NCBI RefSeq assembly: GCF_014084105.1
Contig: NZ_CP048289.1
Location: forward strand, 8,689,922-8,753,921
Length of the DNA stretch: 64,000 nt
Source: Streptacidiphilus sp. P02-A3a
Lineage (GTDB): Bacteria; Actinomycetota; Actinomycetes; Streptomycetales; Streptomycetaceae
Direction: 5' to 3'
Part shown: in pieces, positions 251 to 8,069 of the stretch
Layout of the letters: the number at the start of each line of letters is the position of its first letter
How positions within the stretch are numbered: position 1 is the stretch's first letter
Translations under genes and position numbers: made by a program
The notes under the pieces: model-generated
What the model saw: only the letters and a program-made list of their open reading frames with translations
Told to the model about the DNA's origin: nothing
The model's database searches: none

Positions 251-1564
251 TCAGGCGCGGGGGAGGTGGGGGGCGAGGGCCGGGTCCGGCGTCGCGGCGG
301 GCTCCGGGGCCGACTCCGGCGGCGGGACGGGAGCGGGCTCGGGCCGCTTGCCCCGGGTGGGCTTGAGCGGGAGCCTGGCGTCGATCCGGAAGCCGCCGTT
401 GCTGCCGGGGCCGACGTTCAGCGTGCCGCCGACCATACCGACCCGCTCGCGCATCCCGATCAGCCCGTGGCCGAAACCGTCCTGGCCGCCGTCCCTGGCC
501 AGCTGCGCGGTGGCGCCCCGGCCGTCGTCCTCGATCAGCACGTCCACCCCCCGGTCGTCGAAGCGGATCCGCACCCGGGCGGCGGCCCGCGGGCCGCCGT
601 GCTTGCGGGCGTTGGTCAGCGCCTCCTGGACGATCCGGTACGCCGTCAGCTCCACGCCGCGCGGCAGCTCCCGGGGCTCGCCCTCGACCTCGAACACCAC
701 CGGCAGGCCCGCGTTGCGCACCTGGTCGAGCAGGTCAGGCAGCTGCTCCACGCCGGGCTGCGGCAGGTACTCGCCGCCGCTGTCGGCCGAGCGCAGCAGG
801 CCCAGCAGTCGGCGCATCTCCTCCAGGGCCTGGCGTCCGGTCCCGGCGATGGTCGCCAGTGCCTGCCTGGCCTGCTCGGGCGAGGAATCCATCACGAAGG
901 AGGCGCCGTCCGCCTGGACGATCATCACCGAGACGTTGTGGGCGACCACGTCGTGCAGCTCCCGGGCGATCCGGGCGCGCTCGGCGGCGACGGCGATCTT
1001 CGCCTGGGCGTCGCGCTCGCGCTCCAGCCGCGCGGCCCGGTCCTCCAGCTGCACGTAGTAGGCGCGGCGGATCCGGGTCAGCCGCCCGAGCACCCAGCAC
1101 AGCAGGAACGGCGTGGAGAAGACCACGCTCATGATCACGTCGATCCAGACGTGGTTGTCCGGCCGTCCGGGCGGGGGGTTGGGCGAGGCGTGCGCGCCGT
1201 AGAAGCGCAGCCAGGCCAGCGGCCCGGCGGCGAGCCCGGCGATCAGCGCCGCCCTGGACGTCCAGACGTGGGCGAAGGCGGCGGCCGTGTAGGCGAGCAG
1301 CAGCAGCGCGAAGTCGGCGACGTTCACCCGCGAGCCGCAGGCGACCTGCACCAGGCCGGTGCCGATGCCCACCCAGACCGCGAGGTCGGGACGGCTGCGG
1401 CGGATCACCAGCATCGAGCAGAGCACGACGGTGCTGACCATCAGCGCGAAGGCGAGCTGCCCGTTGTCCCAGTTGACCGCTATCACCAGCGCGCACAGCA
1501 GGAACAGCAAGGCCGCCCATGCGGCGTCAGCCACCATGGGATGCCTGCGGAACCAGCTGTACAT
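251..1564 (-). CDS. Sensor histidine kinase (HisKA_3 type), partner of the response regulator at 1-185
   Basis: A 437-residue membrane kinase. Five or so hydrophobic segments fill residues 10-160. The HisKA_3 box [13 protein letters not shown] carries the phospho-accepting His204, and an HATPase_c domain follows with N-box [11 protein letters not shown] and G-box IEDDGRG. The tail after about residue 400 is Pro/Ala-rich and looks unstructured. The ATG at 1564 was chosen because GGAGG sits 9 nt upstream; a GTG three codons earlier is only 1 nt from it. No extracellular sensor loop of any size is seen, so the signal is probably sensed within the membrane. It is transcribed together with the response regulator. 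Confidence 0.93.
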
Positions 1565-1684: not shown

Positions 1685-2776
1685 ATGGCGATGACCAGCT
1701 GGCGGGACGCGACCGAGACCGCGCTGTACGGGCCCGGCGGCTTCTTCCGGCAGCCGGTCGGCCCGGCCGGGCACTTCCGCACCTCGGTCCACGCGTCGCC
1801 GCTGTTCGCGACGGCGCTGCTGGAACTGGTGCGGTTGGTGGACGAGGGCTTGGGCCGTCCGGTGGAACTGGTGGTCACCGACGTGGGCGCGGGGCGCGGG
1901 GAGCTGCTGCTGGCGCTGGACGCGCAGGCCCGCGACCGGTACCCGGAGCTGGCCGGGCGGCTGCGGCTGCGGGGGGTGGAGCTGGCCGACCGGCCGCCGG
2001 GGCTGCCGGAGCGGATCGGCTGGGGCGCCCGGATCGAGCCCGCGGCGGCCGGGGTGCTGCTCGCCAACGAGTGGCTGGACAACGTCCCGGTGGACGTCGC
2101 CGAGGTGGACGAGGACGGCGTGGTCCGGCTGGTGCTGGTGGATCCGGCGACCGGCCGGGAGAGCCTGGGCGATCCGCTCGGCGGCCCGGCGGCGGACTGG
2201 CTGGAGCGGTGGTGGCCGCTGGCCGGGGGCGCCGCCGAGCCGGGCTTCCGCGCGGAGGTCGGGCTGCCCAGGGACGCCGCCTGGGCGGCGGCCGTCGGCT
2301 CGCTCGGCCGGGGCCTGGCGGTGGCGGTGGACTACGCCCACCACGCGGACGACCGGCCGCCCTTCGGCAGCCTCACCGGCTACCGCGAGGGGCGGGAGGT
2401 ACGCCCGGTCCCGGACGGCGGCTGCGACCTGACCTCGCGGGTCGCCCTGGACGCCTGCCTCGCGGCGGCCCGGTCCGCTCACGGCGAGCGGGTTGTCCAC
2501 AGCCTGTGGACAACCCAGCGCGAGGCCCTGCACCGGCTCGGCCTGAGCGGGGCCAGGCCACCGCTGAGCCTGGCCGCCACCGACCCGGCCGGATACCTGC
2601 GCGCGCTCGCGGCGGCCGGGGAGGCGGCCGAGCTGACCGGGCGCGGCGGCCTCGGCTCGTTCGTCTGGGCGGTGCAGGCGGTCGGAGCGCCGGTCCTGCC
2701 CGAGGAATGGCTGACTGCCCGAGGAATGGCCGCGGACGTCGGCGGATCAGCGGGGATGGCAGACTCTGGGCCATGA
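1685..2776 (+). CDS. MidA/NDUFAF7-family (DUF185) SAM-dependent protein arginine methyltransferase
   Basis: A 363-residue class I methyltransferase of the MidA (SAM_MT_MidA/DUF185) group. The N-terminus has the family's GPGGFF and [12 protein letters not shown] segments. The SAM-binding glycine motif is [15 protein letters not shown] near residue 65, and [13 protein letters not shown] is the acidic post-motif typical of MidA. In eukaryotes the orthologue NDUFAF7 dimethylates an arginine of complex I subunit NDUFS2, the NuoD homologue. The TGA stop at 2774-2776 overlaps the ATG of a nuoD-like gene (ATGA), so enzyme and probable substrate are translationally coupled. The last 15 or so residues are low-complexity. 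Activity on NuoD is inferred from the family and context. Confidence 0.85.
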
Positions 2777-3972
2777 CGAGTAGCGCGCCCATGACGAGCG
2801 GCAGGCCGGGCACCGGTCGGCGGGAGACGACGGTCGGCCTCGGCGCGGGCGCCGCCACCGAACTCGGCACCAGCGACATGGTGCTGAACATCGGCCCGCA
2901 GCACCCCTCCACCCACGGCGTGCTGCGGATCAGGCTGCACCTGGACGGCGAGCTGATCACCGCCGCCGAGCCGATCGTCGGCTACATGCACCGGGGCGCC
3001 GAGAAGCTGTTCGAGGCCCGGGACTACCGGCAGATCATCGTGCTGGCGAACCGGCACGACTGGCTCTCGGCCTTCGCCAACGAGCTGGGCGTGGTGCTCG
3101 CCGTCGAACGCATGCTCGGCATGGAGGTCCCGCTGCGGGCCACCTGGACCAGGACCCTGCTCGCCGAGCTCAACCGGGTGCTGAACCACCTGATGTTCCT
3201 CGGCTCCTACCCGCTGGAGCTGGGCGGGATCACCCCGGTCTTCCACGCCTTCCACGACCGCGAGCAGCTCCAGTCGCTGCTGGAGGAGGCCTCCGGCGGC
3301 CGGATGCACTTCATGTTCAACCGGGTCGGCGGCCTGAAGGAGGACCTCCCGGCCGGCTGGTACGAGCGGGCCCGGGCCGCGATCGCCACCGTACGCGGGC
3401 GCATGGGCACCTTCGACGACCTGGTCCTGGGCAACGACATCTTCCGCGCCCGCACCCGGGGCGTCGGCGTGCTGTCGGCCCGGGCGGTGCACGCGTACGG
3501 GGTGAGCGGGCCGATCGCCCGGGCCTCCGGCGTGGACTTCGACCTGCGCCGGGACGAGCCCTACCTGTCGTACGGCGAACTGGGCGACGTGCTGCGGGTG
3601 GTCACCCGGACCGACGGCGACTGCCTGGCCCGGTTCGAGTGCCTGCTGGAGCAGACCCACAACGCGCTCGACCTGGCCGACGCCTGCCTGGACCGGATCG
3701 CCGAGCTCGCGCCCGGACCGGTCAACCAGCGGCTGCCGAAGGTGCTGAAGGCCCCGGAGGGCCAGACCTACGCCTGGACCGAGAGCCCCCTCGGCGTCAA
3801 CGGCTACTACCTGGTCTCGCGCGGCGACAAGACCCCGTGGCGGCTGAAGCTGCGCTCGCCGTCCTTCAACAACATCCAGGCCCTGGGCGAACTGCTGCCG
3901 GGGACCCTGGTCGCGGACATGGTGGCGATCCTCGGCTCGCTGTTCTTCGTGGTCGGCGACATCGACAAGTAG
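2773..3972 (+). CDS. nuoD: Orphan NADH dehydrogenase subunit D-like protein (NuoD/49 kDa family)
   Basis: A 399-residue member of the complex I 49-kDa/NiFe-hydrogenase large-subunit family, outside any nuo operon. Family hallmarks are [12 protein letters not shown] (residues 39-50), [11 protein letters not shown] (71-81) and the C-terminal [19 protein letters not shown]. Arg74 in the HRG motif aligns with NDUFS2 Arg118 (Arg85 in mature numbering), the residue dimethylated by NDUFAF7. At the quinone-site tyrosine position (the DY of RLDY in NDUFS2) this protein has Trp97 (NRHDWLS), so normal quinone chemistry is doubtful. The first 30 residues are a Gly/Ser-rich extension, and a second in-frame ATG lies 6 codons in. 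Streptomyces genomes are known to carry an extra nuoD annotated nuoD2; this fits that type. It is coupled to the upstream MidA-like methyltransferase and followed by a strong terminator. Confidence 0.88.
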
Positions 3973-7229: not shown

Positions 7230-8069
7230 TCACGCGCCCAGGGAGCGCTTTGCCCTGGTGACCAGCCGGTGAGCATCTGTGCCGTAGACGGCATTGCGGT
7301 TGAGCGCTTCCCAGGCGCGCATATGGAGTGCCACGTCTCCGGGGTCATCGAGCCACATCTCCGCATGCCACGTCTCCGTAATCACCAATTCGTCGTCATG
7401 GATGGAGAAACCGACGCCAGCGGGGACGTGCATGTCTGCTTCGAATGGGATGATGCCGACACGCACGTTCCCTGGCCCGAGTCGGGGAGCCAGGCGGTCA
7501 AGCTGTGTCGACAGGGCAGCCGAGGAGCAGGGGCGTGCGCGCAACGCGCCTTCCCAGATCAGGAAATGAAAGGCGCGGGTCGGGTCGCAGAGGATGTCCT
7601 GTCGCCCCATACGTGCCTGTACAGCGGCCTCGATGTCACGCGGGGCGGAATGGATGGCCGCGTATCGGGTGAGGACGGCACGGGCGTAGTCGGCGGTCTG
7701 CAAGAGCCCCGGAATCAGCGTCGGATCGAAGCTGCGCCGACACCGTGTCTTGCGAGCCTGCGCCCAGTGGGCCTCTTGTACGGGCCGGTACCCTCCGGCG
7801 AGCTGGCGCCGCCAGGACCGGTACTGAGTTTCCAGCCCACGAAGCCGACCGGTCAGTTCCGTAGTCGCATCCGGGCATCCGGTGCCCTTTGCCCATGCGG
7901 CCAAGTCGGCGATTGTCGGGGTCTGTTTGCCGTTCTCCAGCTTGCTGACCTTCGACTGGGTCCAGCCCAGACGGTCAGCGAGCTGCCGACCAGTAAGCCC
8001 GCCCTCGGCGCGCAGTTCTCGCAGTCGCACGCCGAGGGACAGTCGGGCCTGCTGGTAATCAGTGCTCAC
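7230..8069 (-). CDS. XRE-family regulator with DUF5753 domain
   Basis: 279 residues. An N-terminal helix-turn-helix (about 10-65, RQLADRLGWTQSKVSKLENG) is followed by the actinomycete DUF5753 region (about 90-275) with the usual IPGLLQTADYARAVL, RQDIL and LVITETWHAEMWLDDP blocks. Length is normal for the family. The GTG start at 8069 overlaps a TGA of the preceding DUF6879 gene as GTGA, so the two are coupled. Such pairs are common and numerous in Streptomyces; DUF5753 regulators usually control the small gene next to them. This copy appears intact, unlike its paralogue at 9014-9721. Confidence 0.9.
   Translation of the reverse strand: MSTDYQQARLSLGVRLRELRAEGGLTGRQLADRLGWTQSKVSKLENGKQTPTIADLAAWAKGTGCPDATTELTGRLRGLETQYRSWRRQLAGGYRPVQEAHWAQARKTRCRRSFDPTLIPGLLQTADYARAVLTRYAAIHSAPRDIEAAVQARMGRQDILCDPTRAFHFLIWEGALRARPCSSAALSTQLDRLAPRLGPGNVRVGIIPFEADMHVPAGVGFSIHDDELVITETWHAEMWLDDPGDVALHMRAWEALNRNAVYGTDAHRLVTRAKRSLGA

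Follow-up and report, generated by a model that had tools for sequence, protein, structure and literature searches.

The arginine of the HRGxE motif in the D (49-kDa) subunit of complex I lies 3.7 Å from the iron-sulphur cluster N2, and its loss removes that cluster (PMC8042128). It is dimethylated in bovine, human, Pichia and Paracoccus enzymes but not in that of E. coli (PMC3750175), and the human enzyme that methylates it is NDUFAF7 (PMC3829151); the function of MidA in prokaryotes had previously been inferred only in silico (PMC12455994). Thermus carries threonine at that place in D, and a reverse arginine, Arg83 of NuoB, fills the same space (PMC8042128). A second complex-I-like gene set of Streptomyces coelicolor, nuo2 (SCO4599-4608), is of unclear function (PMC9239103), and nuoD2 has been described as a nuo2 member that is not contiguous with the cluster (PMC3765725, 2013; PMC8388888, 2021). 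For the 11-subunit enzymes without subunits E, F and G found in, for example, Desulfitobacterium, the electron donor is an open question, with ferredoxin among the candidates (PMC11238625). Here we describe a stretch of 64,000 nucleotides (the window; G000:C1:8689922-8753921) from the 9.33-Mb single-contig genome of Streptacidiphilus sp. P02-A3a, whose nearest named relatives belong to Streptacidiphilus and Streptomyces, in which nuoD2 lies directly behind midA, a gene for a methyltransferase of the MidA/NDUFAF7 family.

The best explanation of this locus, to which we give a probability of roughly three in four, is that midA codes for a methyltransferase dedicated to assembly and nuoD2 for its predicted substrate, the D subunit of nuo2, with NuoD2 and not the canonical NuoD being the subunit that would be marked. 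We favor this reading because the nuo2 cluster lacks its D gene, NuoD2-type proteins form one clade, the two genes are present and absent together, the D and B subunits switch arginine and threonine in concert, one relative (G386) has nuo2 and the pair with no match to a canonical NuoD, and the known substrate of the enzyme family is this same arginine.

The methyltransferase and its neighbor NuoD2

The product of midA (1685..2776, forward strand, 363 amino acids; DUF185, COG1565, PF02636) matches PF02636 over the catalytic domain with an E-value of 8e-15 (55.4 bits; cut-off 23.3) and PDB entry 1zkd by sequence (E = 1.2e-7, 26% identity), and an NCBIfam search with it matched no family. Its AlphaFold model (mean predicted local distance difference test, pLDDT, 88) has as its top six PDB matches 1zkd (two chains), 4f3n, 5ztz, 4g67 and 5zu0, all at E ≤1.1e-17 and template-modelling scores of 0.68-0.71 by query length. 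The conserved motifs D66-x-G68-x-G70, E129-x-L131-D132 and D248-x-T250 are present; we take the first to be the S-adenosylmethionine (SAM) loop and the second the acidic motif of a SAM-dependent enzyme. D66, G68, G70, E129, L131 and D132 are invariant in 14 aligned MidA rows, and among 99 relatives D66 is kept in 93, G70 in 93, E129 in 96 and G68 in 69 (27 have alanine). By profile, fold and motifs, the protein is thus a MidA/NDUFAF7-type methyltransferase, and a profile search of the genome found one PF02636 gene. It shares its family (PF02636; fold match 5ztz) and, as predicted target, the HRGxE arginine with human NDUFAF7 and Dictyostelium MidA, which act on NDUFS2 Arg85, but it is bacterial, single-copy, of low similarity by the profile and 1zkd matches given above, and gene-linked to its predicted substrate, in a genome with two NuoD proteins of which one has the arginine.

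The adjoining nuoD2 (2773..3972, forward strand, 399 amino acids) overlaps the midA stop as ATGA (2773..2776, forward strand), as a preliminary description made from the window alone had stated and the reading frames bear out. NuoD2 matches PF00346 at 1.1e-67 and NuoD/49-kDa PDB chains in both sequence and fold; it scores under the curated threshold of TIGR01962, a NuoD model, and over that of NF004739. It contains the HRGAEK and HPSTHG motifs, and its His48 is presumably the quinone-site histidine (human His59), by counting against the human sequence. Arg74 (codon 2992..2994, forward strand, counted from the start at 2773), the proposed methylation site, sits in GYMHRGAEK and aligns with the HRG arginine of mitochondrial 49-kDa chains, in agreement with the preliminary description, which had also given HTG for the main Streptomyces NuoD. 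That statement holds for this genome: the other of its two NuoD copies, encoded in a complete nuo operon at about 892 kb of the contig (G000:C1), reads YLHTGIEK. Because it has threonine there, the canonical NuoD cannot serve as a substrate at this position. NuoD2 also differs from a canonical complex I member in lying outside any nuo operon.

A second difference concerns the quinone-site tyrosine of other NuoD proteins (Thermus Tyr87, Yarrowia Tyr144), which is replaced in NuoD2 by Trp97 (codon 3061..3063, forward strand). All 80 of the named relatives have both Arg74 and Trp97. In a comparison of 138 NuoD proteins from 99 genomes, three classes were distinguished, 65 with Arg+Trp (hereafter D2, a class defined by these two residues, which all 65 rows consequently have), 43 canonical with Thr+Tyr and 30 with Arg+Tyr; 37 genomes carry both D2 and the Thr+Tyr form. 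Over 120 genomes of the family, NuoD2 identity (best match per genome) is 79-100%, the match in one genome (G004) falling in two pieces. The HRG loop of the NuoD2 model (residues 71-82) has pLDDT under 50, and no distances were derived from it.

The nuo2 cluster and the arginine/threonine switch

A NuoB search of the source genome gave a second strong match at about 8.42 Mb, within a nuo2 region (L229, ~8.41-8.42 Mb) in which Pfam recognizes A, B, C, H, I, J, K, L, M and N; D, E, F and G had no match in this 20-kb stretch. The gap in gene order is exactly D, between C and H, and the sole non-canonical D in the genome is nuoD2 at the midA locus. A NuoC-family gene (PF00329) lies inside the cluster at L229:8096-9043 on the reverse strand. 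Elsewhere in the phylum, 34 loci from other classes hold an Arg+Trp D between C and H and gave no E, F or G match (41 loci minus seven of the Arg+Tyr class: L257, L258, L259, L261, L262, L268 and L269); the genomes of 24 of the 34 are MidA-positive, and in seven loci midA directly follows N. In a quick tree of 95 of 151 NuoD sequences, a subset drawn with a fixed random seed except for some rows that were retained deliberately, a branch with Shimodaira-Hasegawa approximate likelihood-ratio support of 99 separates all 45 D2 rows, streptomycete and operon-resident alike, from canonical NuoD; the tree carries a warning for long rows, among them one D2 row (L351). Because the cluster lacks a D, an Arg+Trp D occupies that place elsewhere, and both belong to one clade, gene content and tree together identify NuoD2 as the missing D subunit of a second complex-I-like set that has no E, F or G. 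A lone NuoD working alone is ruled out by the partner cluster on the same chromosome. The term orphan used in the preliminary description is apt for the position of the gene only, and its proposal that a methylated NuoD works outside canonical complex I would apply to this second set and not to NuoD2 by itself.

The set corresponds to the Streptomyces nuo2 with its detached nuoD2, although S. coelicolor nuo2 is given in PMC9239103 as lacking C, D, E, F, G and L, whereas the source genome has C2 and L2. The passages on nuo2 consulted in those published accounts mention neither MidA nor the arginine/threonine difference, and we found no link between MidA/DUF185 and nuoD2 among the listed matches in the open-licence full-text literature; as far as that literature shows, nuoD2 as a detached nuo2 member is already known and its tie to MidA is new. 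In composition (A-D and H-N, no N-module), nuo2 resembles the 11-subunit enzymes of the Desulfitobacterium type, but D is encoded apart with a methyltransferase, tryptophan replaces the quinone tyrosine in every D2 read, and some families show only B, C and I together, with D apart.

The D and B subunits also agree in the residues that face N2. In an alignment of 69 NuoB rows, B has threonine wherever the locus carries an Arg-type D of either class (45/45) and arginine wherever it carries a Thr-type D (4/4 rows from three genomes, two of the rows being the same source-genome gene); threonine is also found in the B2 rows that lack a neighboring D (20/20, two of the rows being the source genome's one B2). 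The canonical complex I of the source genome is thus in the same state as the Thermus type (Nqo4 Thr, Nqo6 Arg83), whereas its nuo2 is in the opposite, mitochondrial state, with arginine in D and threonine in B. The source genome therefore holds both states of the switch, NuoB2 matching NuoD2, and the predicted docking of NuoD2 on NuoB2 is supported by the switch together with the co-presence of the genes. We therefore envision that the D subunit of nuo2 would be supplied from the midA locus, that MidA would place a symmetric dimethyl mark on Arg74 ahead of docking on NuoB2, and that the methylated arginine would then pack in the second shell of N2 against the NuoB2 threonine, where the mark could stabilize or tune N2 at the NuoD2-NuoB2 interface; in the canonical complex, NuoB supplies an arginine instead.

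Co-occurrence and alternative explanations

Across 121 genomes of the family, midA was found in 120 (119 by Pfam and one, G071, by tblastn), nuoD2 in 120 and nuoH2 in 120, the last at 74-100% identity. Only one family genome (G015) has no midA, nuoD2 or nuoH2; it has a single NuoB and has kept canonical nuo. In the 119 genomes with nuoD2 and a Pfam match to midA, the two lie on the same contig within 20 kb in 118 and are adjacent, with fewer than 700 bases between match ends, in 89; in the other genome (G010) midA is on a different contig than nuoD2, about 100 bases short of the contig edge. Since tblastn places midA beside nuoD2 in the genome missed by Pfam, 119 of 120 nuoD2 genomes have the two within 20 kb. 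Among 80 named loci, midA is present in 76 (71 adjacent, five within 5.6 kb), and in the four loci with no midA match nuoD2 has a contig end at most 150 bases away on one flank. Family co-presence and the 71 adjacent named loci rule out that the pair is rare; the condition that the preliminary description had named as refuting its reading, a rarely conserved pair, thus does not hold, the pair being near-universal in the family.

The arrangement is less constant than the association. In the 71 adjacent named loci, midA is upstream in tandem in 28 and downstream and convergent in 43. Of the 28 tandem loci, three overlap, one of them in Streptomyces (L104) also by four bases, 12 have a gap of at least 13 bases, and 13 were left uncalled by the script; in the 12 loci of the same genus, an in-frame nuoD start precedes the end of midA. 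The overlap is thus consistent near this genome and within its genus only, and sporadic outside. The idea that the ATGA marks a universal enzyme-substrate operon is weakened by this restriction and by the 43 convergent loci; the enzyme-substrate pair in that claim fares better, as the association is near-universal and the canonical NuoD has threonine. A promoter scan found no promoter.

In the class sample of 148 genomes, 58 have both midA and D2, 78 have neither, seven have midA only and five D2 only; D2 presence was set by hand from E-values (~1e-99 or better) plus one fragment (G358), and weaker second NuoD matches in four genomes (G331, G316, G375 and G394), two of which (G331, G316) adjoin MidA, were left out of the D2 count. 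Joint absence occurs next to joint presence within families f1, f5, f50 and f62. Four of the midA-only genomes are 72-80% complete, and two (G316, G331) have the diverged second NuoD beside midA; three of the D2-only genomes are 70-78% complete. D2 is present in 39 of 41 class genomes with NuoH2, the remaining two being 72 and 80% complete. Of the 52 MidA-positive genomes sampled across the phylum, 51 have an Arg-type NuoD (46 Arg+Trp). A draft genome of the same class (G386; loci L375 and L376; 60 contigs, 100% complete) has nuo2 and midA-nuoD2 and gave no match to canonical NuoD, NuoB or NuoH, and so apparently lives on nuo2 alone.

Several observations nevertheless weigh against the reading of midA and nuoD2 as enzyme and substrate. 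Within the class, one 94% complete genome (G334) is a plain exception with MidA and no D2, and two nearly complete genomes (G292 and G385; 95 and 98%) have D2 and no MidA match; 19 genomes have midA and D2 with no NuoH2 match; and in the phylum sample one MidA-positive genome (G211) has no Arg-type NuoD. The class and family profiles are raw counts that ignore kinship among genomes. For the canonical state of the B/D switch there are the three genomes noted above, the search for E, F and G was confined to the nuo2 stretch, and nuoD2 lies about 270 kb from nuo2, albeit on the same chromosome. Arg+Trp D2 also occurs in 17 phylum genomes where PF02636 detects no MidA, a count from which G071 and G010 are excluded because both carry midA, and a further 23 have an Arg+Tyr NuoD with no MidA detected; the comparison of MidA-negative genomes covers these 17 and 23, and because Pfam missed MidA in two genomes (G071 and G386), some of the negative calls may be false. 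Since the arginine is kept where no MidA is detected, its conservation is no proof of methylation, the notion that it is kept because it is methylated is weakened, and Arg74 so seems to have a role of its own. Finally, the pair stands in an old housekeeping synteny, between folate genes with ftsH and the run panC-panD-nadB, and because of this conserved block adjacency alone is weak evidence.

These last points would suit an explanation in which the two genes are neighbors through old gene order, Arg74 is ancestral, and MidA methylates another protein or DNA. The arginine is unmodified in E. coli (PMC3750175), and a Wolbachia paper tests MidA for DNA methylation (PMC12455994). We nonetheless consider this unlikely, given that only 12 of the 148 class genomes are discordant, that midA ends the nuo2 operon in seven loci of other classes, that proximity outlasts rearrangement between tandem and convergent orders, and that the known substrate of the family is this arginine. 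Alternatively, one could envision NuoD2, with other nuo2 subunits, swapping into canonical complex I to form hybrids with altered N2 or quinone behavior, marked by MidA. Mixed nuo2/nuo assembly in Streptomyces has been proposed (PMC9239103, PMC3765725), and nearly all family genomes have both sets. However, a hybrid would place the D2 arginine and the canonical NuoB arginine in one pocket, while B2 has the matching threonine; G386 keeps nuo2 and D2 with no canonical NuoD, B or H match, and G015 lacks D2 and nuo2 together while retaining canonical nuo, so that hybrids appear to us quite improbable. That NuoD2 is a decayed paralogue with no redox role and some other function, for example in regulation, with MidA a relic, we regard as very improbable indeed. 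The detachment of nuoD2 from its operon, the tryptophan in place of the quinone tyrosine and the decay of residues 151-160 in genomes lacking NuoH2 (see below) might be taken to favor it, but identity remains at 79-100% in 120 genomes, arginine and tryptophan are found in every D2 read (80 named and 65 others), and B2 and I2 retain their cluster-binding cysteines even in reduced sets.

Reduced sets, neighboring genes and implications

The reduced sets come from the NuoH2-less genomes. A NuoB2 search of 31 chosen genomes, including 18 of the 19 with midA and D2 but no NuoH2 (G326 excluded), found at least two NuoB in 25 of 26 D2-positive genomes, B2 only in the remaining one (G386), and a second NuoB in each of the 18; of five D2-less genomes, four have one NuoB and the other (G157) has two, beside two canonical NuoD. 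In 13 of the 16 stretches examined (covering all of the 19 but G326, G332 and G357), B2, C2 and I2 form a cluster with no A, H or J-N beside it (MidA-positive genomes G284, G286, G299, G302, G306, G315, G321, G330, G343, G354, G365, G369 and G379), and a further genome in which MidA was not found (G385, L377) has the same arrangement; these clusters are at L362-L367, L369-L374, L377 and L378, and the midA-nuoD2 loci of most are at L340-L344 and L346-L352. The absence of membrane genes refers to the immediate surroundings of the cluster and, for NuoH2, to the whole genome; canonical nuo is often nearby. In the three other stretches, two clusters (G289, G335) run off contig ends, and a complete genome (G181; L359:9604-11858) has an eroding nuo2 with A2-B2-C2, H2 in two pieces and I2, and no L, M or N match in the stretch.

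The metal sites of these sets appear intact. Of 14 B2 matches, 13 retain the full set of four N2 cysteines and one is too short to show two of them; I2 has both 4Fe-4S motifs in 14 of 14. HRGAEKL and RHDW are present in all D2 read from 13 NuoH2-less genomes (12 of the B2-C2-I2 genomes, with G343 not read, plus G357). Between full and NuoH2-less D2 rows, mean conservation falls from 0.86 to 0.27 at residues 151-160 and from 0.86 to 0.69 overall, whereas residues 71-100 remain at 0.85-0.95. Among the 10 full rows are G289 and G335, whose clusters run off contigs, and the fall is partly divergence, since more families are represented in the 13 reduced rows.

Homologues of 2-oxoacid:ferredoxin oxidoreductase genes, korA-korB, are divergent from B2 in 10 of 19 Actinomycetes loci (L360, L361, L367, L369-L374 and L378), with htpX and yajQ-like (DUF520) genes next in several; KorA scores above the cut-off of TIGR03710 and KorB below that of PorB_KorB. 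No korAB was found in the source genome's 20-kb nuo2 stretch or in the 34 in-operon loci, which argues against the idea that ferredoxin feeds nuo2. On the korAB neighbors of some relatives, it may be more weakly supposed that nuo2 takes electrons from ferredoxin, and the arrangement suggests that ferredoxin could be the donor in some lineages and that the core has no need of a membrane arm. A broader picture, which we put forward only tentatively and think more likely wrong than right, is that actinobacterial D2 marks a branch of complex I that has given up quinone use of the known type, whose B2-C2-D2-I2 core would be ferredoxin-fed, freed from the membrane arm in several lineages and served by its own MidA methylating Arg74 beside N2. 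We draw it because of the tryptophan in every D2 read, the B2-C2-I2 sets, the intact iron-sulphur motifs and the retained residues 71-100.

Other genes of the window have a looser relation to the pair. A NarL-type sensor histidine kinase (251..1552, reverse strand) is divergent from midA, and its response regulator (L005:8427-9152) crosses the left window edge to about base 230; among 81 loci, the kinase cluster is found again in 73 and a 224-residue neighbor of regulator size (judged by size) in 63, and the tie between this two-component pair and midA-nuoD2 is one of neighborhood only. Further along, at 7230-8069 on the reverse strand, lies a regulator with helix-turn-helix and DUF5753 domains, a type common in streptomycetes.

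Regardless of how nuo2 is fed, streptomycetes would offer a natural control for the methylation of complex I, with one methyltransferase and two D subunits in each cell, only one of them having the target arginine; the reverse arginine in the partner subunit of the other complex adds to this control. The role of arginine dimethylation at N2, together with the function of nuo2, would become testable by deletion in standard laboratory strains. If the membrane-free B-C-D-I sets are working enzymes, they would show that the part of complex I that transfers electrons can exist apart from its pump.

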